Shown: piece after piece, positions 28,278 to 38,289 of the stretch
Position numbering within the stretch: the stretch's first letter is position 1
Layout of the letters: each line of letters begins with the position of its first letter
Origin: Bacteroidales bacterium
GTDB taxonomy: Bacteria > Bacteroidota > Bacteroidia > Bacteroidales > UBA932
Assembly (NCBI GenBank): GCA_024401695.1
Contig: JAKSKN010000005.1
Span: 1-64,000, forward strand
Direction: 5' to 3'
Length of the DNA stretch: 64,000 bases
The notes under the pieces: model-generated
Database searches by the model: none
What the model saw: only the letters and a program-made list of their open reading frames with translations
What the model was told of the DNA's origin: nothing
Translations under genes and position numbers: made by a program

Positions 28278-28922
28278 TCAGTCGAACATCACCCTCGGAT
28301 TCATCACCGCCGGGCTGTCCCACTCTATCCCAAATTCTGCAAGCACCGCTTTCTTCGTGCTCCAGTATGAGTAGCAGTATCCCATACCCTTGCGCTCGTC
28401 CTTCAGTTTCCTGTCGCACCGCTCTTCGACGTCGTAAATGCAGTTCTCCCATTTTTCTGTCCTTTCCACAGGATCGAATTTCAAGTGCACTCCGTAAGTC
28501 CTGCACCATTCTTCCATTGAAATCCGCGTATCAAGATAGTCTTCGACCTTTTTGGCGGCTTTCTTCAAGTCATCTTCAGTGTATTCGTGGACATATTTCT
28601 CAGGGTCGCCCTCATAGTGGTCAATATCCATATCCTCCTGGATATCATCGGCGCTGATCAGCGGGAACATGCTTTTCTGGTAGTCGCGTACCTCCTTCAT
28701 AAAGCGTGCGCAATCCCTTTCCGGCATGCAGGAGATCATCTTGTCCAGCAGCACTATGCGTGTGTATGGCGTAAGCTCGCCTTCCACCCTTAGTGGAAGC
28801 TTGTCCTTCATCAGTCTGAAGGCTTCCTTTCCCAGCGGAATGTTCTTCCAGCTTGCGCCGAATGAATTGTAATTGTCAACCATTTCGGAGAAAACCTCTC
28901 CGAGCTTTTTCAATTTGTCCAT
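28278..28922 (-). CDS. Last gene of the signalling operon; unknown function
   Basis: The protein has 214 residues, starting at the ATG at 28922 (MDKLKKLGEVFSEM). Upstream in-frame ATGs would make a lipoprotein-like start but would overlap the whole C-terminus of the DUF1963 gene, so I reject them. It is mostly charged alpha-helix, with IPLGKEAFRLMKDKLP and VERTEKWENCIYDVEE, and has no motif I know. It is probably cytoplasmic. It lies 22 bp after the DUF1963 gene and is the seventh gene of the operon starting at 36089. Confidence 0.65.
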   Translation of the reverse strand: MDKLKKLGEVFSEMVDNYNSFGASWKNIPLGKEAFRLMKDKLPLRVEGELTPYTRIVLLDKMISCMPERDCARFMKEVRDYQKSMFPLISADDIQEDMDIDHYEGDPEKYVHEYTEDDLKKAAKKVEDYLDTRISMEEWCRTYGVHLKFDPVERTEKWENCIYDVEERCDRKLKDERKGMGYCYSYWSTKKAVLAEFGIEWDSPAVMNPRVMFD

Positions 28923-28944
28923 AGCAATTGCATATTCAAGTGTA

Positions 28945-29583
28945 TCAGAAGGTGTGCATACAACCGACCGCCCTTTCCCAGTCGTGCCCGAAGAGATGCG
29001 AGCGCCGCATGAGCAGAAAGAGCATGCCGCAATCAAAAAAACGAAGGCCCCAGTCATCATTCTCGTCAATCTGGAGCACGGAAACGTAGTCATCATCATA
29101 TTCTTCATTGATTTCAATCAGATATGGCCGTCCGAGCAGCTTGAAGCCGTCGTCGCACGCGCCGCAGGTCTCGAAGTCGAGTTTCTCGGCAGGCATGAAG
29201 ACCGACTCCCCTGTCTCGTCCCAGGTCATTTCATAAGGTTCCAGCCCCTCGCAGGACGGGCTGTACATTATTCTCACGCATTCGCCAGGCCACTCTCCTA
29301 TCGGCGTCAGCAGCGGGCAGTCAAGTCCCAGGAAATAATCTACCGCAGCGAAGAAATACAGCATCCCCTCGTGCGGCAGCAGGCCGTCCGGGTCGAGCGC
29401 CGCGATGTCCTCGCAGCGTATCTGACACAGGAAAGTCAGAGGTTCGTCCCATTCGTCGCCGTCGTCGGCACAATGCACGACCGGATACGGGGAACCTGCC
29501 GGCAGGTCCGGCGCCCCCCACCACTTGCTGCGTCCTTCCAGAGACTCGCAAGTCTTTGAAAATAAAAGTCTTATCGAATACAT
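28945..29583 (-). CDS. DUF1963 (YwqG-like) protein
   Basis: The protein has 212 residues from the ATG at 29583, one base after the PP2C stop. SKWWGAPDLPAGSPYP, FLCQIRCEDIAALDPDGLLPHEGMLYFFA and the closing VSVLQIDENDDWGLRFFDCGMLFLLM are the hallmarks of DUF1963, a beta-rich family of unknown function often found with toxin-immunity or signalling genes. Here it follows kinase, FHA and PP2C genes, so a regulated partner or substrate role is possible. Confidence 0.85.
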   Translation of the reverse strand: MYSIRLLFSKTCESLEGRSKWWGAPDLPAGSPYPVVHCADDGDEWDEPLTFLCQIRCEDIAALDPDGLLPHEGMLYFFAAVDYFLGLDCPLLTPIGEWPGECVRIMYSPSCEGLEPYEMTWDETGESVFMPAEKLDFETCGACDDGFKLLGRPYLIEINEEYDDDYVSVLQIDENDDWGLRFFDCGMLFLLMRRSHLFGHDWERAVGCMHTF

Positions 29584-29584
29584 A

Positions 29585-30358
29585 TCAAGCTGCCCAATCC
29601 CAGCGTCCATCATCGTCGGGGCCGTCGCTGTCGCCGAACTCCCCTCCTCCGACACGTATCAGCGCAACGCTGGCGTTGTCCGTGCCGCCATTGATTTCAG
29701 CCCTGTCGCACAATTCTTCGGCAGGGTTGCCCGACACTGTCAGGAAATATTCCATCTCATCGTCCGGAACGGATCCGTAAACCCCGTCCGAACAGATCAT
29801 TATCACATCATCATCCTGTACCTGCCCCGTGATATCCCTTACTACGGGAGTACCTGTCAGACCTCCGCCCACGCAGTTGAGCAGCAGCCCGTTTCCGTCT
29901 TTCTGGTCCTCCGACAACTGCTCAAGCATACCGTCGCGCCAGCGGTACATACGGCTGTCTCCGGCATTGACAAGGAACACCCTGCCATAGATCAGCACTA
30001 TGCCGCAAAGGGTCGTTCCCATCGGCCTTTCATAGCCCAGGCAGGCCGACCTGGCGTTCAGCTTCGCGCTCACATACTCGACGGAGCTGATGAAGTCGGC
30101 TTCGAAGTCCTCTTCGGAGAAATCCCCCATCGTAAAGCAGTCGCGGATGTGTTCCAGCAGGTCGCTGCTTGCCTGCTCTCCCCCTTCGTGGCCTCCCATA
30201 CCGTCGGCGACGAATGCATACCAGTATTCGCCCGCCTCCTCGTCCGTCACCTTCAGCGCCTTGTCGCGAAGCATACGGCCGGCTATGCTCAGCATATCTT
30301 CATTGTTTTCTCTGACCGGGCCCTTGACGGATATTGCGTCTATTGAAACAAGCATCAT
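29585..30358 (-). CDS. PP2C-family Ser/Thr phosphatase
   Basis: The protein has 257 residues, a bare catalytic domain. Metal-binding Asp motifs are RENNEDML, VADGMGGHEGGE, MICSDGVYGSV and GGTDNASVALI, so it should be active. It removes phosphate from Ser/Thr and is expected to counter the kinase three genes upstream. The start overlaps the FHA gene stop by 4 bp (ATGA). No membrane segment is present. Confidence 0.94.
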   Translation of the reverse strand: MMLVSIDAISVKGPVRENNEDMLSIAGRMLRDKALKVTDEEAGEYWYAFVADGMGGHEGGEQASSDLLEHIRDCFTMGDFSEEDFEADFISSVEYVSAKLNARSACLGYERPMGTTLCGIVLIYGRVFLVNAGDSRMYRWRDGMLEQLSEDQKDGNGLLLNCVGGGLTGTPVVRDITGQVQDDDVIMICSDGVYGSVPDDEMEYFLTVSGNPAEELCDRAEINGGTDNASVALIRVGGGEFGDSDGPDDDGRWDWAA

Positions 30359-30822
30359 TTTACGACAAAAACAGAGGTTGCTATCATTACGGTGTCACCG
30401 GCCTTCAAAGTTTCAGGAATATCCTTTCGGAGAGTTTTTCCGTTGACTTTGGTGCCGTTGGTACTGCCCAGGTCAGTAATCGTCCACAGCGGGCCTTGAC
30501 GGCCGATGCGGCCGTGGATGCCGGATATGTACTGAAAGGCGCTCAAATCGGGCCAGATTCCCCCTCTGCGGCCGAAATCACCTTCAACAAGAGTGAGACT
30601 GAGACCTTCGCCGCAAAGCGAGAGCCCAGCGGTGGCCGAAGGCCCGGTGCCCTCCGGTGCGGCTGTGTCGAGGGACTTGACGAGGGGAACGCCGCAGGCG
30701 GCGCAGATGGTGCCCGTCTTCGGCTTGCCGCATTCGGGGCAGAACTTGAATTCCTTTCCGCACTGGTCGCAGAAGCAGCTGTCATCAGGGACCTGAGCCC
30801 TGCAGAATGGACACATTAGCAT
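30355..30822 (-). CDS. Zinc-ribbon FHA-domain protein
   Basis: The protein has 155 residues. The first ~45 residues contain paired zinc ribbons (CPFC, CDQCG, CPECG, CAACG). The C-terminal ~90 residues form an FHA domain with GIHGRIGRQGPLWTITDLGSTNGTKVNG, including the Ser/His and Asn phosphothreonine-contact positions, and KAGDTVMI. FHA domains bind phosphothreonine, so it is the likely reader of the local kinase. The start overlaps the ATPase stop by 7 bp. Confidence 0.93.
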   Translation of the reverse strand: MLMCPFCRAQVPDDSCFCDQCGKEFKFCPECGKPKTGTICAACGVPLVKSLDTAAPEGTGPSATAGLSLCGEGLSLTLVEGDFGRRGGIWPDLSAFQYISGIHGRIGRQGPLWTITDLGSTNGTKVNGKTLRKDIPETLKAGDTVMIATSVFVVK

Positions 30823-33254
30823 ATTATATCCTCCGGTAAGATCGTCACCAGTTCGTCAGTGGTGGCATTTTCGTTAAACATAGTCCTTTCCGCCAGATGG
30901 CTTTCGACTTCTCCCAGGAAAGTCCTCACTTCCCGGGCATTGCCGAAATCCCAGTCGCGGCTGTCATACATCTGCTGCAGTTTCTCCCGTGCCGCTTCTG
31001 CCGCCCCTTCACCGAGCTTCAGCCCCTTCTTCGAGCAGTTCAAAAGGAATATCCTGTACAATTCATCGGCATTGTAGTCCTCGAACGAGATCTTCTTCAC
31101 GAGCCTTGAACGGAGTCCTGAATTGGCATTTAGGAAATCCTGCATCTCGCGTGTATAGCCGGCGCATATGCATACGAACTTCCCCCTGTTGTTCTCAAGG
31201 AGAGGGACCAGTGTGTTGATGCATTCGCGGCCGTAAGAGTCATTCTCCGAATTGATCAGCGAATATGCCTCGTCAATGAAAAGGATGCCTCCCATAGCCT
31301 TCATCACTGCGTCTTTGGTAAGCTTGGCGGTATCTCCCTGGAAACGTCCGACCAGGTCATCACGCCCAACTTCCACGACATCCGGCCTGCTGAGGAGGCC
31401 GAGTGCGTAAAGCATCTTGCCCATCAGCCTTGCCACCGTGGTCTTGCCGGTGCCGGGATTGCCGAGGAACTGATAATGCTCGGCGATCAGGTCAGGGGTC
31501 TTCCCCGCGGCCTTGCAGAGCATCTGTTCGCGACGCACACCGGCGGCCAGGCCACGAATGTTCTTCTTTACTCCTTCCAGACCAATAAGTGCGTCGAGTT
31601 CCTTCATTATGCTTTCCAGATCGAGCTCTTCCGATGAATCCTTTCCGGAGATGTCGGCATATCTGAGGAGTTTCCCTTCCCTGGCGGCTTCCGCTTCGGA
31701 CATATCGCGCTGACGTGCCCTGCGCCGTTCGTCGGCCAGCTTGAGAAGGTTGCGCATATCGCGCGCGTTGCCGAAATCGGCACCGCGCCTGTTGTAAATC
31801 GATTCCATCTCCACGTGGAGCATTTCTGAAGCTTCACTGTCAAGCTTCAGGCCATTCCCGTCAGCCATCGAGCGGAAGATCGTCTCCAGTTCGACAGGGT
31901 TGTAGTCAGGGAAATCAATCGTCTTGTTGAAGCGGGACTTCAATCCCGGATTGGCCTTGAGGAAGTTCCTCATATCTTCGGTATATCCCGCTATTATGCA
32001 GACGAACTTTCCGCGTTCATTTTCAAGGATAGGCACGAGCTTGTCGATCGCCGCCTTGCCGAACTGGCCTTCGTTCAGGCCGTAGGCCTCGTCTATGAAG
32101 AGCACTCCGCCCATAGCGCGGTCAACGGCATCCTGGACATTCCTTTCGCTGCCTCCAACGACGTCGGATATGAGGTCTTTGCCCGCAAGTTCCACAAACT
32201 GGCCCTGCGGGAGCACTCCGATGGCGCCGAGTATGTCGGCGAAGCAGCGGGCCATCGTGGTCTTTCCGGTGCCCGGGTTGCCGGTGAAGACGAAGTGGTC
32301 GTCCAGTTTCGGGCTCCCGCCTGTCTTCCTGGCTTCTTTCACGCCGTCGATGATGGCGTGCATTTCGTCCTTCACGTTCTGGAGACCGATGAATTTGTCC
32401 ATCTCGGCCCAGATCTCGGCCTCTGTGCGGGGCACGAATACGTTCCCTTTGATATCGTCCGTCTCCAACCTGCCGTTGCCTCTGAGAAGGGCGCTCACGC
32501 CGGCTTCCTGGGCTTCTGTTTCGGCCAGATGGCCGCCTCCCTGGATATTGCCCCGCAGCATCCATTCGAAACGCTTGACCAGCTTGTCACAGAATTCCGC
32601 CGTCGGCTCAAGGTGGAAGCTGCTCCTGAGCTTGCTTTCGCATATGTGCGCAAGGTCTTCCTTGCAAAGCGGCTTCAGGTCGAAGCGGCATTCGAAAAGG
32701 CTTGCCACGTCCGGGTTCTTCTCCAGAAACGGCTCCATCCCCTGCTTCAGGCCGCAGACGAACACGGGCGGCATCTGTGACGAATCGGCCCGCATACGCG
32801 CAAACAGGCGGTCAAGCTTGTTGACGTCGGAAGAAAATCCGCCCGGAAGGAGCTTCTGCGCATTCGTGATGACAAGGGCGCCTTTCCGCACAGCCTTGAG
32901 GTTGTCATCGAACTTCTCCATCCATTTGCTGAATTCCGAGGCATCCACGAGGGTGTACTTCGGATCTTCTACCAGACCTTTGGCCAGCAGGACATCATAC
33001 AGCTTGCCGGCAAGGAAGAGCTTTCCTGTGCCTGCATCGCCTACGATGAGGCAGTCGATCCCGATGCCGCCGGCTCCTTCCTTCAAGAGAGTTGCTGCCT
33101 GTGCGCGAGCCTCGAAACGCCTGAACTCCTTTTCTATGTTTTTCTTGCCGAAGAATCCGGGGAAACCGCTTTCTGCCTGGACTGCAGTTCCGCAGAAGCG
33201 GCAGAATTTGGCTTCGTTGCGGTTCTCTTTCCCGCATTTACTGCACTTGCTCAT
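30816..33254 (-). CDS. Multi-domain AAA+ ATPase of CbxX/CfqX type with zinc ribbon
   Basis: The protein has 812 residues. An N-terminal zinc ribbon (CSKCGKENRNEAKFCRFCG) is followed by a degenerate AAA-like module (VGDAGTGKLFLA about residue 75, no clear DExx box). Two complete CbxX/CfqX AAA+ modules follow, with FTGNPGTGKTT (about 326) and GVLFIDEAY, then FLGNPGTGKTT (about 601) and GILFIDEAY. CbxX proteins remodel Rubisco, and the EccA ATPase of type VII secretion belongs to the same clade. Here it probably remodels an unknown protein under kinase control. It overlaps the kinase gene by 17 bp. Confidence 0.92.
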   Translation of the reverse strand: MSKCSKCGKENRNEAKFCRFCGTAVQAESGFPGFFGKKNIEKEFRRFEARAQAATLLKEGAGGIGIDCLIVGDAGTGKLFLAGKLYDVLLAKGLVEDPKYTLVDASEFSKWMEKFDDNLKAVRKGALVITNAQKLLPGGFSSDVNKLDRLFARMRADSSQMPPVFVCGLKQGMEPFLEKNPDVASLFECRFDLKPLCKEDLAHICESKLRSSFHLEPTAEFCDKLVKRFEWMLRGNIQGGGHLAETEAQEAGVSALLRGNGRLETDDIKGNVFVPRTEAEIWAEMDKFIGLQNVKDEMHAIIDGVKEARKTGGSPKLDDHFVFTGNPGTGKTTMARCFADILGAIGVLPQGQFVELAGKDLISDVVGGSERNVQDAVDRAMGGVLFIDEAYGLNEGQFGKAAIDKLVPILENERGKFVCIIAGYTEDMRNFLKANPGLKSRFNKTIDFPDYNPVELETIFRSMADGNGLKLDSEASEMLHVEMESIYNRRGADFGNARDMRNLLKLADERRRARQRDMSEAEAAREGKLLRYADISGKDSSEELDLESIMKELDALIGLEGVKKNIRGLAAGVRREQMLCKAAGKTPDLIAEHYQFLGNPGTGKTTVARLMGKMLYALGLLSRPDVVEVGRDDLVGRFQGDTAKLTKDAVMKAMGGILFIDEAYSLINSENDSYGRECINTLVPLLENNRGKFVCICAGYTREMQDFLNANSGLRSRLVKKISFEDYNADELYRIFLLNCSKKGLKLGEGAAEAAREKLQQMYDSRDWDFGNAREVRTFLGEVESHLAERTMFNENATTDELVTILPEDIIC

Positions 33255-35382
33255 TGATTTCTGTGGTTTCGTTGTAAGATTGTGTATGCATCACGGATGC
33301 CGGCCCGGGCAGGATCAGTGCAGCCAGCACGATGATGGCCAGGGTCCTGACGATATGCCCGGTCAGTTTCTTCCTGCGATCCTTGACGAATTGGCTCCAG
33401 CCGAGCCATATCTGGTTCCGGGTGATGCCGTTCAGGGATGAATCAAAGTCCTTGTCATCGCTGAATGCGTAGTACAGGGGCTCCACGACAAGTTCTTCCA
33501 TCCCGATGTCGGCTTTTTTGCCCTTGATGAGGCCGGAGACCGTGAGATCCGTCCTCGGCCCGCCGGCTGCAAACATCACCGTGTAGCTGTATTTTTTAAA
33601 CAGTACCCTTACGACATTCGCCACCAGCTGGAAGACAACGGCGGCGAGAAGGGGCCAGTAGATGAATTTCGCCTCCGCTTTGAGCGAACAGAGTGTCCAG
33701 ACTATTATGAATACCAGCGGCAGGACCACAAGGACAATGTCCAGGATGGTCTGGGCTATTGTTCTGCCGCGGTTCTTCTTCTGGGTCCTGTTTATTTCCA
33801 TCTCCAGTTCGTCGGCCTTGTCGCAGGCATATCTGAAGAATCCGCACTCCTCGGTCTTGGGGTCAATCGACTCCAGCTCGATCAGGTAGTCTTCCAGAAG
33901 CGATTCGTAGGCATAGCCTTCAGACAGGTCGGCGTCAGGGTCCTCGTGGTACTGGACGGCCAGCCAGCCTTTCAGACCGTGCGAGAGGCCATATTTCTTG
34001 TCATAGTCATCAACGCTTTCGAGTTCTTCGAGTGATGTCACGGTGTCGTTCTCGAATTCATAATACGGAGTGAATCCGAAGCCCTTGATCGTCTTCATCA
34101 TTGAAATCTCGAGCCTCGTTTCTTCGTCCTGCGGACCTGCTTTCCCTGCATTGTCGTCGGAATCCCAGTCGCAGCAGTATTCCATCCAGCTGTCCTGGTC
34201 GGCGAACCGGTCGCCCTTGCTGTTGAAGAACAGCTGCATATAGGAACCCTCGTATTCTGAAAAACTGTCCACTACGGCCTGGCATAATTTTGCATCGGCG
34301 GGAGCCTTGGCATCGGCGAACTGCCACAGATAAACCTTATTGAGGAATGCTCCGATGGACTCGCCCGTCATCGCGTAGTCCTTGCTGTGCGGATTTGCGT
34401 TCAGCTTGACGTCACTGAGAGGGTTGAGCGTGTGCATCACAGCCCAGTGCCCGCCCAGGCTCTGCTCGATATCCTTCAGGCGCCAGCGTTCCGACGGATT
34501 CTTCTTGAGAAGTCCGGAAACGATGTTGCGCAGGCGTTCCGGCATATCCTGTGGCGGTCTGATGCCGTGACTGAGTTTCTCTATCGCCATCTTTTCCTCC
34601 TCAGCAAGGAAGGCCTCCTCTCCGGACCAGAGGCAGAGGGCTGTCATACCGAGGGAATAGAAATCCGCCGCAGGCGACATCTCGAACAGGTCGACGCCGT
34701 CGATCCTGGCTTTCGCGCAGGCCGGGTCGTAGATTTCAGGTGCGGCGTATATCGGGGTGCGGGACTGTTTGGTTATGGCCTTGCCATCTGAGTTCATAAT
34801 ATCGGATATGCCGAAGTCGCATAGCACGCAGTTCCATATCGTGCTGTCTTTGACGAGTATGTTCGCAGGCTTTATATCCTTGTGGATGACACGGCTGCGG
34901 TGGATTGCATCAAGTGCGATGGCTGCCCGCAGGACGATGGTGGTGATCGCCGGAGCATTGCCCCTGAGGTCATATCGGGCAAGCGAGCCTCCGGGGATGT
35001 ATTCCATAAGTTCATATTCCCTGCCCTCCGGGGTTCTGCCGGTCTCGAAGATGTCGGCGACAAGCCCCTTTCCGCCAAGGTGCTTCAGTGCATCGTTGAC
35101 CTTGACGTTGGGATGGAAGCCTTCGTGATATTCCTTCAGGGCAAAGCGCCTGCCTCCCCTGTCGACGGTCCTGATGTCGGCTTCAGCGCCGCTGCTTATT
35201 GAAGCGTCTGTTGAAGGCGGAGGCGTCAAAGTGATCTTTGGCGGCTGTGCCACCGCTGTCTTCTGCGGTGCTACAGCTGTCTTCTGCGGTGCTACAGCTG
35301 TCTTCTGCGGTGCTACCGCTGTCTTCTGTGGCGCTATGGCTGTTTTCTGCGGTGCCACCGCTGTCTCTTGAGGGTTTGCCAT
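33238..35382 (-). CDS. Hanks-type Ser/Thr protein kinase with heptapeptide repeats and C-terminal membrane segments
   Basis: The protein has 714 residues. Residues 8-49 are tandem A-V-A-P-Q-K-T heptads, one Thr each. The kinase domain (about 60-310) has the ALK lysine, catalytic loop IHKDIKPANILV (about 167), DFG (about 188), and IYAAPEIYD. The glycine-rich loop is poor. A linker of ~220 residues, with DUF-like repeats EYEGSYMQLFFN and YCCDWDS, leads to three hydrophobic helices (about 545-570, 580-605 and near the end). It probably signals at the inner membrane. The start overlaps the zinc-ribbon gene by 1 bp. Confidence 0.9.
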   Translation of the reverse strand: MANPQETAVAPQKTAIAPQKTAVAPQKTAVAPQKTAVAPQKTAVAQPPKITLTPPPSTDASISSGAEADIRTVDRGGRRFALKEYHEGFHPNVKVNDALKHLGGKGLVADIFETGRTPEGREYELMEYIPGGSLARYDLRGNAPAITTIVLRAAIALDAIHRSRVIHKDIKPANILVKDSTIWNCVLCDFGISDIMNSDGKAITKQSRTPIYAAPEIYDPACAKARIDGVDLFEMSPAADFYSLGMTALCLWSGEEAFLAEEEKMAIEKLSHGIRPPQDMPERLRNIVSGLLKKNPSERWRLKDIEQSLGGHWAVMHTLNPLSDVKLNANPHSKDYAMTGESIGAFLNKVYLWQFADAKAPADAKLCQAVVDSFSEYEGSYMQLFFNSKGDRFADQDSWMEYCCDWDSDDNAGKAGPQDEETRLEISMMKTIKGFGFTPYYEFENDTVTSLEELESVDDYDKKYGLSHGLKGWLAVQYHEDPDADLSEGYAYESLLEDYLIELESIDPKTEECGFFRYACDKADELEMEINRTQKKNRGRTIAQTILDIVLVVLPLVFIIVWTLCSLKAEAKFIYWPLLAAVVFQLVANVVRVLFKKYSYTVMFAAGGPRTDLTVSGLIKGKKADIGMEELVVEPLYYAFSDDKDFDSSLNGITRNQIWLGWSQFVKDRRKKLTGHIVRTLAIIVLAALILPGPASVMHTQSYNETTEINEQVQ
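35236..35361 (-). repeat. 21-bp tandem repeats encoding AVAPQKT heptads
   Basis: Five complete 21-bp units plus one degraded unit lie in the kinase N-terminus. The nucleotide sequence is nearly identical between units, so copy number could change by slippage without shifting the frame. Confidence 0.9.
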
Positions 35383-36089
35383 CACTTCTTGATGTAATCG
35401 GTTCGGGTTGTTTCTTCGTCTTCATATTTCCATTTGCCGCCAAGGTATGGCTTGGTGCATTCGGACGGCTGGTCGTGGCAGCAGCCGCAATAGTTGCAGA
35501 CCCATCCCAGACAGACGCGTCTGGTCGTCTTGGTGACGACGGCTACCTTGCGGGCGCAGAAATAGTTGCGCTGCTCCTGGGGCGTGCTGCCCGCCGGAGG
35601 AAGCATCTGTCCGAGCAGGGCGTTCAGGTCGTCCGTGACCTTGATCAGCTCCCGCTTTATCTGCGGGGCCTCGGCCGGGGCTGCCTGTTCGAGCTTGAGC
35701 TCAAGTTCTTCCAGCTTTCCGTTCTGCTCGACGGCGGCCTTGAAGACGGGGTCGGCTTTTGCAGCCTCGAGCATCCTTTCCGCGGCCCTCGTGACAGGGG
35801 CGTTGCATTTCGGGCAGAATGACCTGTGGCTCAGAGTGCCGCAGGAAGGGCATTTTATGCCTCCGGCCGGTGCTCCGCATTCAATACATTCTTCGTCCGC
35901 CCAGCCCATCGGTGCGCCGCAAAAAGTGCAATAGGATACAAGCCGGCGTCCGCAGGAAGGACATATCTCGTCATCTTCGTGGACCGCAGCGCCGCAGTGA
36001 GGGCATCTGATGCCTGAACCGGCCTCGGATACGGCCGTTTTCTCTTTTTTTAGTTCTGCGGTTGCAAATGAAAAACCATACTCTGTCAT
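35382..36089 (-). CDS. Multi-zinc-ribbon protein, first gene of the signalling operon
   Basis: The protein has 235 residues. CPHCG/CPSCG, CTFCG/CIECG and CPSCG/CPKC are three zinc-ribbon pairs in residues about 28-95. A coiled-coil linker (LEELELKLEQAAPAEAPQIKRELI) and a C-terminal Cys-rich block (CLGWVCNYCGCC) follow. It has no enzyme motif and probably acts as an adaptor. The ATG at 36089 is 6 nt from TATCTTGC, a variant -7 box, so the mRNA is probably leaderless. It is divergent from the lipoprotein gene at 36130. Confidence 0.82.
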   Translation of the reverse strand: MTEYGFSFATAELKKEKTAVSEAGSGIRCPHCGAAVHEDDEICPSCGRRLVSYCTFCGAPMGWADEECIECGAPAGGIKCPSCGTLSHRSFCPKCNAPVTRAAERMLEAAKADPVFKAAVEQNGKLEELELKLEQAAPAEAPQIKRELIKVTDDLNALLGQMLPPAGSTPQEQRNYFCARKVAVVTKTTRRVCLGWVCNYCGCCHDQPSECTKPYLGGKWKYEDEETTRTDYIKK

Positions 36090-36095
36090 AACTAT

Positions 36096-36124
36096 GCAAG
36101 ATAGTCATTTTTTTTGTATTTTTG
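36096..36124. promoter_or_regulatory. Divergent leaderless promoters of the signalling island
   Basis: TATCTTGC on the minus strand (36096-36103) precedes the zinc-ribbon gene by 6 nt and TATTTTTG on the plus strand (36117-36124) precedes the lipoprotein gene by 5 nt. Both halves of the island share this 40-bp control region. Confidence 0.6.
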
Positions 36125-36129
36125 CTGAT

Positions 36130-36528
36130 ATGAAAAAGTACTTGCTGATTCTTTTTGCCATTCTTGTATGTGCAGGCTGCGGAAAAAAGCAGTCGTTGAA
36201 GGTTGAAGACCCTGCGGTCAGGGAATCGATGCGTACGAGGGACGAAAATTGTCCGATTGACTCGCTGTTCACCCGGAAGGGTGTCAGAACCTCTTTCGAC
36301 GTGTTCAGCCACGTAAAGCCCAAGGCATTCCTCAACGATTTCAAGGCTGCGCAGGACAGCACTGTGACAAAGCCTCTGGCGAGGATGAAAGGGGCATATG
36401 CCACGGTTGAGAAAGAGCACGCCGGAGATTACAATCCGGGACTGACGATTTATTCCATCGTCATCATCATCGTCTTTGTGGCCCTGATGCTTTTCAAGAT
36501 AATACGTGCCATCTTCAAAAACGACTAG
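36130..36528 (+). CDS. Small lipoprotein with C-terminal membrane helix
   Basis: The protein has 132 residues. An N-terminal signal with lipobox VCAGC (Cys about residue 17) is followed by a charged domain (SLKVEDPAVRESMRTRDENCPIDSLF, DVFSHVKPKAFLNDF) and a C-terminal hydrophobic helix (LTIYSIVIIIVFVALMLFKII). Having both lipidation and a C-terminal helix is unusual; it may span from the outer leaflet or be held in the inner membrane. Function is unknown. It is 3 bp before the DnaJ-like zinc-finger gene and faces the kinase operon. Confidence 0.72.
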   Translation: MKKYLLILFAILVCAGCGKKQSLKVEDPAVRESMRTRDENCPIDSLFTRKGVRTSFDVFSHVKPKAFLNDFKAAQDSTVTKPLARMKGAYATVEKEHAGDYNPGLTIYSIVIIIVFVALMLFKIIRAIFKND

Positions 36529-36531
36529 CGT

Positions 36532-38289
36532 ATGAAAGTGAACGAATTGAGGCGTGCCATAAATGAGTACTCCCGTGAGACGAGCGCTCACCCATATACG
36601 GACTATGGTGACAAGGTGACGGTCAGGGTGAATGATGACTGCCCTGTTCAGGAATGCCGCGTCACGACACAGTATGAGGACCGCGACAAGAAGAGCGTTT
36701 CGCGCCCGTATAGGGGGTGGAACCTGGCTCCGCGCAAGTATTTTTCCCTTGATGATATCGATGAATGGGATTTCAAGCTCAGGCTCCCGGATGATTTCAT
36801 CGACAAGAAGACCGTCGTGAACGTGGACGGGTCGGCTTATGTGAAGGAATGCAGTTCCTGCAATGGTTCCGGCAAAGTCGCGTGTTCAAGCTGCCTCGGC
36901 AAGGGAAAGACTCTCTGCAAGAGGTGCAATGGTGATTATTCCCATCTGTCCTGCTCGCATTGCGGCGGCAGCGGACACAACTCCTGCCCTTCCTGCGGAG
37001 GAAAAGGCGAGCACGTCTGCTCCAAGTGCAAGGGCACGGGCAGGACTGTCGAGAATGTGAGTGTATGGAAGAACCACTGGGATTACAATCTCAAGAAATA
37101 TGTCGGAGGATATGAATGGGAACTGAAAGAGATGACCTGTTCCGCCTGCGGCGGCAAAGGCCGGTGGCGCTGCAATAACTGCGGTGGCACAGGGCACCTT
37201 GAATGCCGGTACTGCGACGGCCGGGGCTATGTGACCTGCCCTGATTGCAACAAGGGATATGTCACGTGCGAGATTTGCCGTGGTGACGGAAAGATTACGT
37301 GCCGTGTCTGCGAGGGTGCCGGCAAGAATGAGTTCAGCTATGTCGTTGACAGGAGCCTTTCAAAGGATACGCGCAAGACATATGTCTGCGACAAAAGGGT
37401 ACGCGGATTCGTCGAGGAGTACGAACTGGATTATCCGGATATCCAGTTCCGCGAGCGTCGTGACCATCTTGGCGAAGATCTGTTCACCGAGGACGTGCGC
37501 TGCTCTTCCAGCCTTTCCAAGCTTGTCTCCAGGTCAGAGCCCGACAGCGGCGTCATCCTTTTCCAGGAAGCGCTTGTACGCAGGGTGATGGTTACATACG
37601 TGGAATATGAGCTGGACGGCAGCAGTTATACGGGATATGTCTGCAACGGTGTCTTCTATCCGGAGAACAGTCCTATCGACGAATGGGCGGCAGGTGTGAT
37701 TGACAATGCCGAAAAGAAGATCAGAAGGGGAAGCAGCGCTGAATCCCTCAAGATACTCAAGTCTGCCGAGCAGGCAGGAGGTGACAGCAGGCTGATTGCG
37801 GACCTGCGCGCCCTTGCACGCAAGAAACTGGGCAACCTTCAGGATGCGGGTGTCAGTGTGGGGTTCTGGCTGACGATTCTGTTCCTGTCCCCTGTCCTGT
37901 TCAACTTCTATTCGAAGTTCAACCCTGTTGCTCCCTGGGCCATTGTCACGAACAACCCGAACTGGCGTTTCCTGAATTTCCTTCCGTTGTGCCAGACCCT
38001 CATATTCCTTGGGATCGCAGTTGTGCTGAGGTTCATTTTCTCTTCAATCGCCTCCGATGGCGCAAGAAAGAACTACTCGAGCATCTGGATATATTTTGCC
38101 AAGGGATTTGTCGGCTATATGCTGGCCGCAGTGGCATCAATGGCGGTTCTGGTGCTTCTCAACTATTTGGGCCTCAGCATCCTGACGACATTCATCCTGG
38201 GCCTGATACTAATTGTGGTGATCGGTGTGATCGCGATAGCGCATCTCATCATCAAATGGATAGTCCAGCTGATCGCAGGTCTGTTCTGA
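36532..38289 (+). CDS. Membrane protein with a long DnaJ-like zinc-finger array
   Basis: The protein has 585 residues. An N-terminal region (about 1-100) has no recognisable J domain. Residues about 104-265 contain 12 CxxC motifs, mostly CxxCxGxG as in the DnaJ zinc finger (CSSCNGSG, CPSCGGKG, CNNCGGTG, CRVCEGAG). DnaJ itself has four. The C-terminal ~150 residues hold four hydrophobic helices. It is likely a membrane-bound zinc-dependent protein-binding or redox factor. It is in an operon with the lipoprotein and convergent with luxS. Confidence 0.85.
   Translation: MKVNELRRAINEYSRETSAHPYTDYGDKVTVRVNDDCPVQECRVTTQYEDRDKKSVSRPYRGWNLAPRKYFSLDDIDEWDFKLRLPDDFIDKKTVVNVDGSAYVKECSSCNGSGKVACSSCLGKGKTLCKRCNGDYSHLSCSHCGGSGHNSCPSCGGKGEHVCSKCKGTGRTVENVSVWKNHWDYNLKKYVGGYEWELKEMTCSACGGKGRWRCNNCGGTGHLECRYCDGRGYVTCPDCNKGYVTCEICRGDGKITCRVCEGAGKNEFSYVVDRSLSKDTRKTYVCDKRVRGFVEEYELDYPDIQFRERRDHLGEDLFTEDVRCSSSLSKLVSRSEPDSGVILFQEALVRRVMVTYVEYELDGSSYTGYVCNGVFYPENSPIDEWAAGVIDNAEKKIRRGSSAESLKILKSAEQAGGDSRLIADLRALARKKLGNLQDAGVSVGFWLTILFLSPVLFNFYSKFNPVAPWAIVTNNPNWRFLNFLPLCQTLIFLGIAVVLRFIFSSIASDGARKNYSSIWIYFAKGFVGYMLAAVASMAVLVLLNYLGLSILTTFILGLILIVVIGVIAIAHLIIKWIVQLIAGLF

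Follow-up and report, generated by a model that had tools for sequence, protein, structure and literature searches.

A five-gene kinase, FHA, PP2C and AAA+ core with threonine repeat arrays in Bacteroidota: a candidate phospho-threonine signalling complex

What kind of system is encoded where genes for a multi-zinc-ribbon protein (DZR), a Ser/Thr kinase, an AAA+ ATPase, an FHA protein and a PP2C phosphatase lie side by side in a Bacteroidales genome? The locus of interest occupies positions 28278–38289 of the window, the 64,000 bp stretch of DNA analysed here (bases 1–64000 of contig C44, from a genome of 2.65 Mb). A sequence-only reading had described it as a self-contained, nine-gene phospho-switch that drives the AAA+ protein, in which zinc ribbons serve as a common docking mark. 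The analysis revealed two points that alter this picture. Firstly, the unit that recurs among relatives is a core of five genes. Secondly, the core kinase carries an array of threonine repeats at its N-terminus, and the motif of these repeats often reappears in the partner FHA protein. The core may encode an inner-membrane complex for phospho-threonine signalling—an autophosphorylated array, a docked FHA protein and an AAA+ remodeller—an interpretation that we hold to be evenly balanced between right and wrong.

In the window, the core genes and the array are arranged as follows:

35382..36089, minus strand: DZR, multi-zinc-ribbon protein; the first core gene; its C-terminal domain (W-x-C ... 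H ... C ... G-G-x-W) is conserved
33238..35385, minus strand: KIN, Ser/Thr kinase; N-terminal threonine array, kinase domain, long middle region and C-terminal membrane helices (by eye)
35242..35367, minus strand: threonine array inside the kinase gene; six 21 bp units
30816..33254, minus strand: AAA, CbxX-type AAA+ protein; zinc ribbon at the N-terminus, then three AAA modules, of which the first has Walker A and no DEAY
30355..30822, minus strand: FHA protein; double zinc ribbon, linker and FHA domain (G84 R85, S100, H103, N122)
29585..30358, minus strand: PP2C-type Ser/Thr phosphatase, by domain match

To what extent does this arrangement hold elsewhere? Fifty-one different loci were annotated with profiles built from the window proteins (L086, a repeat of L042, was dropped, and L142 is an extension of L054). 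Every locus was recruited through DZR or AAA+, and so the locus counts are conditional on those two genes. All five core genes are seen in 40 loci, and in 40/40 they lie together on one strand. The order DZR-kinase-AAA+-FHA-PP2C is found in 39 of these: 36 as called, plus L054 (PP2C gene located on the extension L142), L096 and L113 (FHA frames overlapping other calls, identified by hand). The sole exception, L026, has the kinase last. Extra frames lie between core genes in 7/40 loci; they include short AAA pieces (L030, L091), a split DZR (L094), two accessory genes (L114) and unlabelled frames (L054, L089, L141). At 549 residues the L141 kinase is short, and frames of 418 and 107 come after it. 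The remaining 11 loci are interrupted by contig ends, G006 excepted: in this genome, DZR-kinase (L107) and AAA-FHA-PP2C (L027) are on separate contigs and, as other genes follow behind the kinase, the core may be truly split. AAA+ matches without other core genes in the fetched stretch (L031–L037, L039) were rejected as core loci.

The core genes are thus not scattered among relatives. Together with the absence of a type VI secretion system (T6SS) sheath gene from carrier genomes (see below), this bears out the idea of a self-contained kinase/FHA/PP2C/AAA+ module. An open reading frame check recovered all nine genes of the sequence-only reading, and a domain library search upheld their domain assignments; the nine-gene system itself gives way to the five-gene core, with four optional extras that are all missing from 18/40 loci.

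The core is patchy but widespread in Bacteroidota. An AAA+ search in 61 genomes found seven full-length relatives, including that of the window. Distribution counts were made with a profile of the DZR C-terminal domain (A4, later A5) in genome sets that overlap one another; carriers make up 36/300 genomes of the same genus, 5/393 of the order and 7/395 of the phylum, with 4/80 and 3/79 in two other families and 7/294 in another class of the phylum. They are spread over nine families (f1, f4, f12, f21, f26, f42, f60, f83 and f177), hence the description as patchy yet widespread. A scan of genome contigs with one protein as query gave two loci, and Bacteroidales MAG40 and Candidatus Cryptobacteroides choladohippi (L041 and L042, with AAA+ identities of 79 and 81%) were the closest named relatives found. 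The window DZR protein has no match in plasmids, and none of 89 pattern matches to the DZR C-terminal domain in viral contigs was confirmed. AAA+ relatives do occur in plasmids (268 records, all below 60% identity). Three plasmid regions were opened. No kinase, FHA or PP2C gene is listed for those of Calothrix and Ligilactobacillus, where several genes bear just the label 'hypothetical'; for Priestia the record comes without a gene table.

At the N-terminus of the kinase, the window protein carries TAVAPQK six times over. These tandem 7-residue threonine repeats were absent from the sequence-only reading and were found here. Threonine makes up 10.5% of the N-terminal part of the kinase versus 5.0% of the rest, while serine is at 6.2% versus 5.5% (45 kinases; the N-terminal part is the first ~90 residues, cut at 90 in 43/45). 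When array units are anchored on xP[QEGH], without reference to threonine, the slot three residues before the anchor holds Thr in 129/161 units and Ser in 2/161. FHA domains favour phospho-threonine over phospho-serine, and the composition of the slot therefore suits recognition by such domains. By a lenient criterion, 38/40 loci have at least three mutually similar threonine sites.

Comparison of the array copies with one another gives a synonymous divergence (pS) of 0.77 and a nonsynonymous divergence (pN) of 0.20, across the 21 arrays that have three or more anchored units. This set includes near-identical loci and has DKTVR-type arrays outside it; some altered units are lost through the anchoring, whose pattern also fixes the P column. 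Individual arrays vary: in the window pS is 0.49 and pN 0.06, pN is 0.00 in L090 and L092, and it reaches 0.36 to 0.45 in L029, L087–L089, L091 and L106. Repeats that have diverged at silent sites while keeping their peptide speak for selection on that peptide rather than for recent slippage. With one mismatch, the pattern K-T-A-[V/I/M]-A-P-Q has own-genome matches confined to the kinase array (5/5 places), and it varies by lineage, with D-K-T-[V/I]-R in distant lineages versus K-T-A-V-A-P-Q.

Beyond the array, Lys84, Asp170, Asn175 and Asp190 (of DFG) are invariant in 33/33 aligned kinases, an alignment that leaves out L141 and near-identical kinases. PG_binding_1 is found in 11 of these 33 and SH3_3 in one; in the L028 kinase, the peptidoglycan-binding domain lies at residues 965–1021 of 1110, behind the membrane helices. 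No PASTA domain was found in any of the 33 (E ≤ 0.001).

If the array is read by an FHA domain, a candidate reader is encoded two genes downstream. Gly84-Arg85, Ser100, His103 and Asn122, which we take to form the phospho-threonine pocket, are invariant in 32/32 FHA proteins. Outside its FHA domain, this protein often bears the array motif of its own kinase. In distant lineages the motif stands at the C-terminal end: DLDKTVRI in L051 and DSDATVRV in L052 (kinase motifs DKTVR and DATVR), GEKTIRV in L054, TEKTVRI in L055, DDEKTVRL in L131, DPDRTVRL in L132 and QDKTERV in L141. In Cryptobacteroides-type loci it lies in the linker: PQGTAVSPQ in L090 (kinase motif PQGTAVAPQ), PQGTTVAP in L026, PQPTAAG in L114, PQGTSAQP in L098 and KKTATD in L113.

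The match was assessed with a permutation test, in which a motif model built from each kinase array is scored against the non-domain part of each FHA protein (20,000 permutations). Across 23 loci whose kinases are less than 65% identical, own pairs score 3.71 versus −1.34 (standard deviation 0.71), and across ten distant loci 8.80 versus 3.43 (standard deviation 1.19); 0/20,000 permutations reach the own-pair score in either set. Among Cryptobacteroides-type loci it is reached by 36/20,000 permutations (14 loci) and 18/20,000 (22 loci). Controls from the same 23 loci give far larger numbers out of 20,000: 1,640 for the FHA domain, 14,820 for PP2C, 2,535 for the first 400 residues of AAA+, and 15,681 and 1,603 for the DZR C- and N-terminus, respectively. 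The DZR N-terminus, which in the window contains EKTAVS, was considered as a further carrier of the threonine motif and rejected, being weak at best (in addition to the value above, 5,626 in 14 Cryptobacteroides-type and 114 in ten distant loci). An R-x-R-E-R-like motif, with a charged stretch rich in threonine and serine after it, recurs in the N-terminal part of many DZR proteins from Cryptobacteroides-type loci.

The other core proteins are likewise conserved in their key residues. Active-site motifs are present in 39/41 PP2C proteins (exceptions: L041 and L050), and the zinc-ribbon cysteines are conserved in the DZR, FHA and AAA+ alignments. With catalytic and phospho-threonine pocket residues kept in this way, the core proteins look active. 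For the window DZR protein, no NCBIfam family was found at E ≤ 0.001, and its C-terminal domain has no convincing solved relative (best E 0.26).

The AAA+ protein was rightly assigned to the CbxX type, and the single module attributed to it proves to be a zinc ribbon plus three AAA modules. All 41 AAA+ proteins have the zinc ribbon, and all have three to five Walker A modules. The Walker A count always exceeds the DEAY count by one: 4/3 in 31 proteins, 3/2 in six (the window protein is 3/2) and 5/4 in four; an alignment of nine AAA+ proteins places the module without DEAY first. A module number that varies from three to five must mean that ring stoichiometry differs or that assembly is mixed. 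The AAA+ proteins of L051, L054, L055 and L132 are ~1,390 residues long. The AAA modules come with AAA_lid_6 and match the CbbX and EccA1 structures by sequence. The window protein passes the NCBIfam SpoVK cut-off (435 of 422.95 bits) and falls below that of the EccA equivalog (381.6 of 466.65 bits). The name SpoVK (stage V sporulation) is misleading for this Bacteroidales protein, and is likely a misannotation.

Around the core, the window contains the following optional genes:

28945..29655, minus strand: DUF1963 protein, by domain match; optional accessory
28278..29117, minus strand: hypothetical protein, an open reading frame with uncertain start codon; optional accessory
36090..36129, no strand: 40 bp gap between divergent starts
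36130..36528, plus strand: lipoprotein-like protein; lipobox and C-terminal hydrophobic stretch by eye; optional accessory
36532..38289, plus strand: CxxC membrane protein (by eye); 12 CxxC motifs and a BSD2 cysteine-rich domain match; optional accessory

Lipobox and membrane helices were judged by eye from the sequence. The 40 bp divergent gap is as first described, and a count by eye again gives 12 CxxC motifs. The first 57 codons of the hypothetical gene overlap DUF1963 in another frame, the overlap being 173 bases, and the overlapped N-terminal part is lipoprotein-like. Given this overlap, and a homologue (L029:4717-5298) that begins later, without the DUF1963-overlapping part, the true start is probably internal. 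The GC content of the island is ordinary. The cassette is flanked by genes presumed to be QueA and LuxS; none of the tested window flanking genes lies within the stretches examined of L041 and L042. No empty site was found, QueA not being beside LuxS at the nearest LuxS loci of relatives (1.5 kb each side).

Among the 40 complete loci, DUF1963 is present in at least 12, the hypothetical protein in at least 17, the lipoprotein in at least 8 and the CxxC protein in at least 9. These counts are lower bounds, because the stretches extend over only ~6 to 22 kb. The divergent layout of the lipoprotein and CxxC genes is real in the window and not general among relatives: both lie behind PP2C on the same strand in L028, L092, L094, L095 and L097, and between FHA and PP2C in L114. 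Pfam searches of ten proteins from relatives (nine neighbours and one kinase) identified TerB proteins, DUF4062, a calcineurin-like phosphoesterase, an M48 peptidase with TerB and a GNAT protein, with weak or no matches for some neighbour frames. In PADLOC searches, the nine window proteins gave generic kinase and AAA matches only, plus weak ones (E 0.007 and 0.013); nine accessory proteins of relatives gave no match at E ≤ 0.001, most other neighbours not having been run against the library.

Two further gene groups were observed. In L027:7720-12646 and L029:13868-18765, near the core and followed by DUF1963, a ~1,000-residue protein (with DUF4062 in L029) overlaps a ~610-residue protein that looks, by eye, like an RCK/CASTOR-type channel; the membrane protein (by eye) behind the DUF4062 protein has 615 residues. 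Outside the window, at ~138–148 kb of contig C44, locus L040 resembles a TerY-P triad: a TerY_C protein, a kinase, a vWA protein and PP2C are encoded at L040:5926-9653. A divergent HNH endonuclease gene adjoins them, and genes for a PG_binding_1 protein and two radical SAM proteins follow at some distance.

How might the core work? We propose the following sequence of events: (i) the C-terminal part of the kinase would sense something at or outside the membrane, as suggested by the peptidoglycan-binding domains of its homologues, (ii) the kinase would phosphorylate its own N-terminal tail at the threonine repeats, (iii) the phosphorylated array would offer the zinc-ribbon FHA adaptor a multivalent docking surface, (iv) in many lineages, the motif copy in the adaptor linker or C-terminal tail would, once phosphorylated, compete with or shut off docking, (v) PP2C would remove the phospho-marks, (vi) the FHA adaptor and DZR protein would recruit the multi-module AAA+ protein to the membrane, and (vii) there the AAA+ protein would remodel a client. 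Optional genes (CxxC, lipoprotein and DUF1963; in relatives TerB, DUF4062, metallophosphoesterase and M48 peptidase) could encode lineage-specific sensors or clients. Docking of the FHA protein onto the array is likely, and recruitment of the AAA+ protein by the phospho-complex is plausible. That the switch drives the AAA+ protein, as proposed earlier, we also infer; with regard to the docking mark, the sequences speak more directly for contact between phospho-threonine and FHA than for shared zinc ribbons.

Several observations weigh against this proposal. The AAA+ protein is tied to phosphorylation by gene order alone. The kinase-FHA motif match is partly shared descent, which inflates permutation tests; the control proteins share the same descent, and a comparable effect is seen only for the N-terminal part of DZR across the ten distant loci. 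The shared motif might reflect the kinase and the FHA protein both being substrates, without docking. In the window itself, nothing in the FHA protein matches the motif of its kinase well (best score −4.7), the EKTAVS of the DZR protein does not generalise across the 14 Cryptobacteroides-type loci, and the kinase has no peptidoglycan-binding domain at E ≤ 0.001. More broadly, a negative score, or no threonine that could be scored, is found for 16/30 FHA proteins of the Cryptobacteroides type, whose copy of the motif is absent or altered beyond recognition; L030 and L050 among the ten distant loci likewise score below zero or lack such a threonine. Finally, L050 and L102 have only two array-like threonines, even by the lenient criterion.

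Three other explanations deserve consideration. The core could centre on an envelope or peptidoglycan homeostasis kinase of the PknB/PstP/FhaA type, with the arrays as flexible spacers and the AAA+ protein independent. PG_binding_1 in 11 of the 33 kinases and SH3_3 in one, with the former behind the membrane helices in L028, fit this explanation. A spacer, however, is not expected to hold threonine in 129/161 slots amid so much synonymous change, nor to match the partner FHA protein, and no PASTA domain was found in 33/33 kinases (E ≤ 0.001); overall, we judge this explanation unlikely.

Similarly doubtful is an anti-phage or conflict system, in which kinase and phosphatase would set a threshold and the AAA+ or an accessory protein would act on infection. 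Its appeal lies in the patchy occurrence (36/300 same-genus and 7/395 phylum genomes), in the placement of the core between neighbours unlike those of the window in L041 and L042, in variable accessories that include TerB and DUF4062, and in a kinase domain that resembles MADS and PD-T4-6 kinases. Yet neither the nine window proteins nor the ten relatives' proteins show a toxin or nuclease domain, the MAD6 model scores far under its cut-off (75.3 of 460 bits), the nine accessory proteins are unmatched in PADLOC, the DZR searches of plasmids and viral contigs gave the negative results above, and 18/40 loci lack any of the four window accessories.

The least probable explanation by a wide margin is a secretion regulator acting in a T6SS threonine phosphorylation pathway or in a type VII, EccA-like role: a kinase and an FHA protein do activate the T6SS in Agrobacterium (PMC3953482, in the part of the text available) and the AAA modules do match the CbbX and EccA1 structures, but VipB (T6SS sheath) was found in 0/49 carrier genomes (24 of the 49 with completeness ≥ 90% and contamination ≤ 5%; E. 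coli control positive), on which ground the T6SS reading was rejected, the EccA model stays under its cut-off, and no secretion core gene was noticed beside the loci, where most neighbours were not run against the library and the type VII core was not searched for.

Returning to the phospho-threonine complex, a more specific and frankly tentative version can be formulated, one that we think somewhat improbable as a whole: the kinase would write a multivalent code on its own tail, repeat number would set FHA avidity, the adaptor motif would be the off switch, the code would load a single-chain AAA+ protein onto species-specific membrane clients, and tail and reader would co-evolve as a private, insulating code. 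If true, pairs of kinase tail and FHA reader would be insulated from other kinases, and array length could serve as a variable dial. Docking sites that are readable in sequence, with a matching reader, would make kinase/FHA specificity accessible with short peptides. CbxX-type AAA+ proteins are known from Rubisco activation and type VII secretion; the complex would add a phospho-regulated role outside both.

How does the core compare with known systems? Among the matches listed from open-licence full texts, which leave subscription papers aside, there is no published description of the five-gene set. SpoVK is a single-module AAA protein of endospore formers, whereas here there are three modules plus a zinc ribbon, and the closest relatives with a name belong to Bacteroidales. 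The likeness to CbxX, SpoVK and EccA extends to AAA modules with AAA_lid_6 and to the SpoVK cut-off; the difference is three to five Walker A modules per chain behind a zinc ribbon, with one fewer DEAY (41/41). The TerY-P triad consists of the TerY vWA protein, PP2C and a kinase. As in that triad, kinase and PP2C occur together here, and TerB genes lie beside some relatives, but no vWA or TerY_C is among the matches listed for the nine window proteins. PASTA kinases (PknB/Stk1) differ in the domain for which they are named, and MADS kinases in the MAD6 score given above. The nearest text concerns kinase/PP2C/vWA neighbourhoods with zinc ribbons in Actinobacteria (PMC7159879, as far as the accessible portion goes). 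The kinase-kinase-phosphatase system (KKP) shares Ser/Thr kinases, PP2C and an FHA domain; in the excerpt at hand it consists of two short kinases, with FHA fused to one, is prophage-borne and has no AAA+ protein described (PMC11341870). The T6SS pathway of PpkA, PppA and Fha likewise combines a kinase, a phosphatase and an FHA reader—in Agrobacterium, PpkA phosphorylates TssL and Fha binds the phosphorylated TssL (PMC3953482, same portion)—whereas here the sheath gene is missing from carriers, and AAA+ and zinc-ribbon proteins are added.

The closest parallel is with PknG and GarA/OdhI of Actinobacteria. According to the sections available of PMC8546545, the disordered N-terminus of PknG, with several threonine autophosphorylation sites, anchors GarA via the GarA FHA domain, and GarA bears a phosphorylatable threonine of its own. 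Here, the conserved threonine arrays at the kinase N-terminus would be the counterpart of the PknG sites, and many FHA partners, that of the window excepted, carry a threonine motif that could play the part of the GarA threonine. In PknG, TPR and (in most PknG) rubredoxin-like domains flank the kinase domain; neither is among the 11 Pfam families matched by the 33 kinases here (E ≤ 0.001). The core described here differs further: its sites form tandem repeats instead of being scattered, its kinase has membrane helices, its adaptor has zinc ribbons, it belongs to another phylum, and the same run of genes also encodes PP2C and the multi-module AAA+ protein. Phospho-threonine/FHA signalling, the kind proposed here, is already known; the AAA+ partner is unusual.

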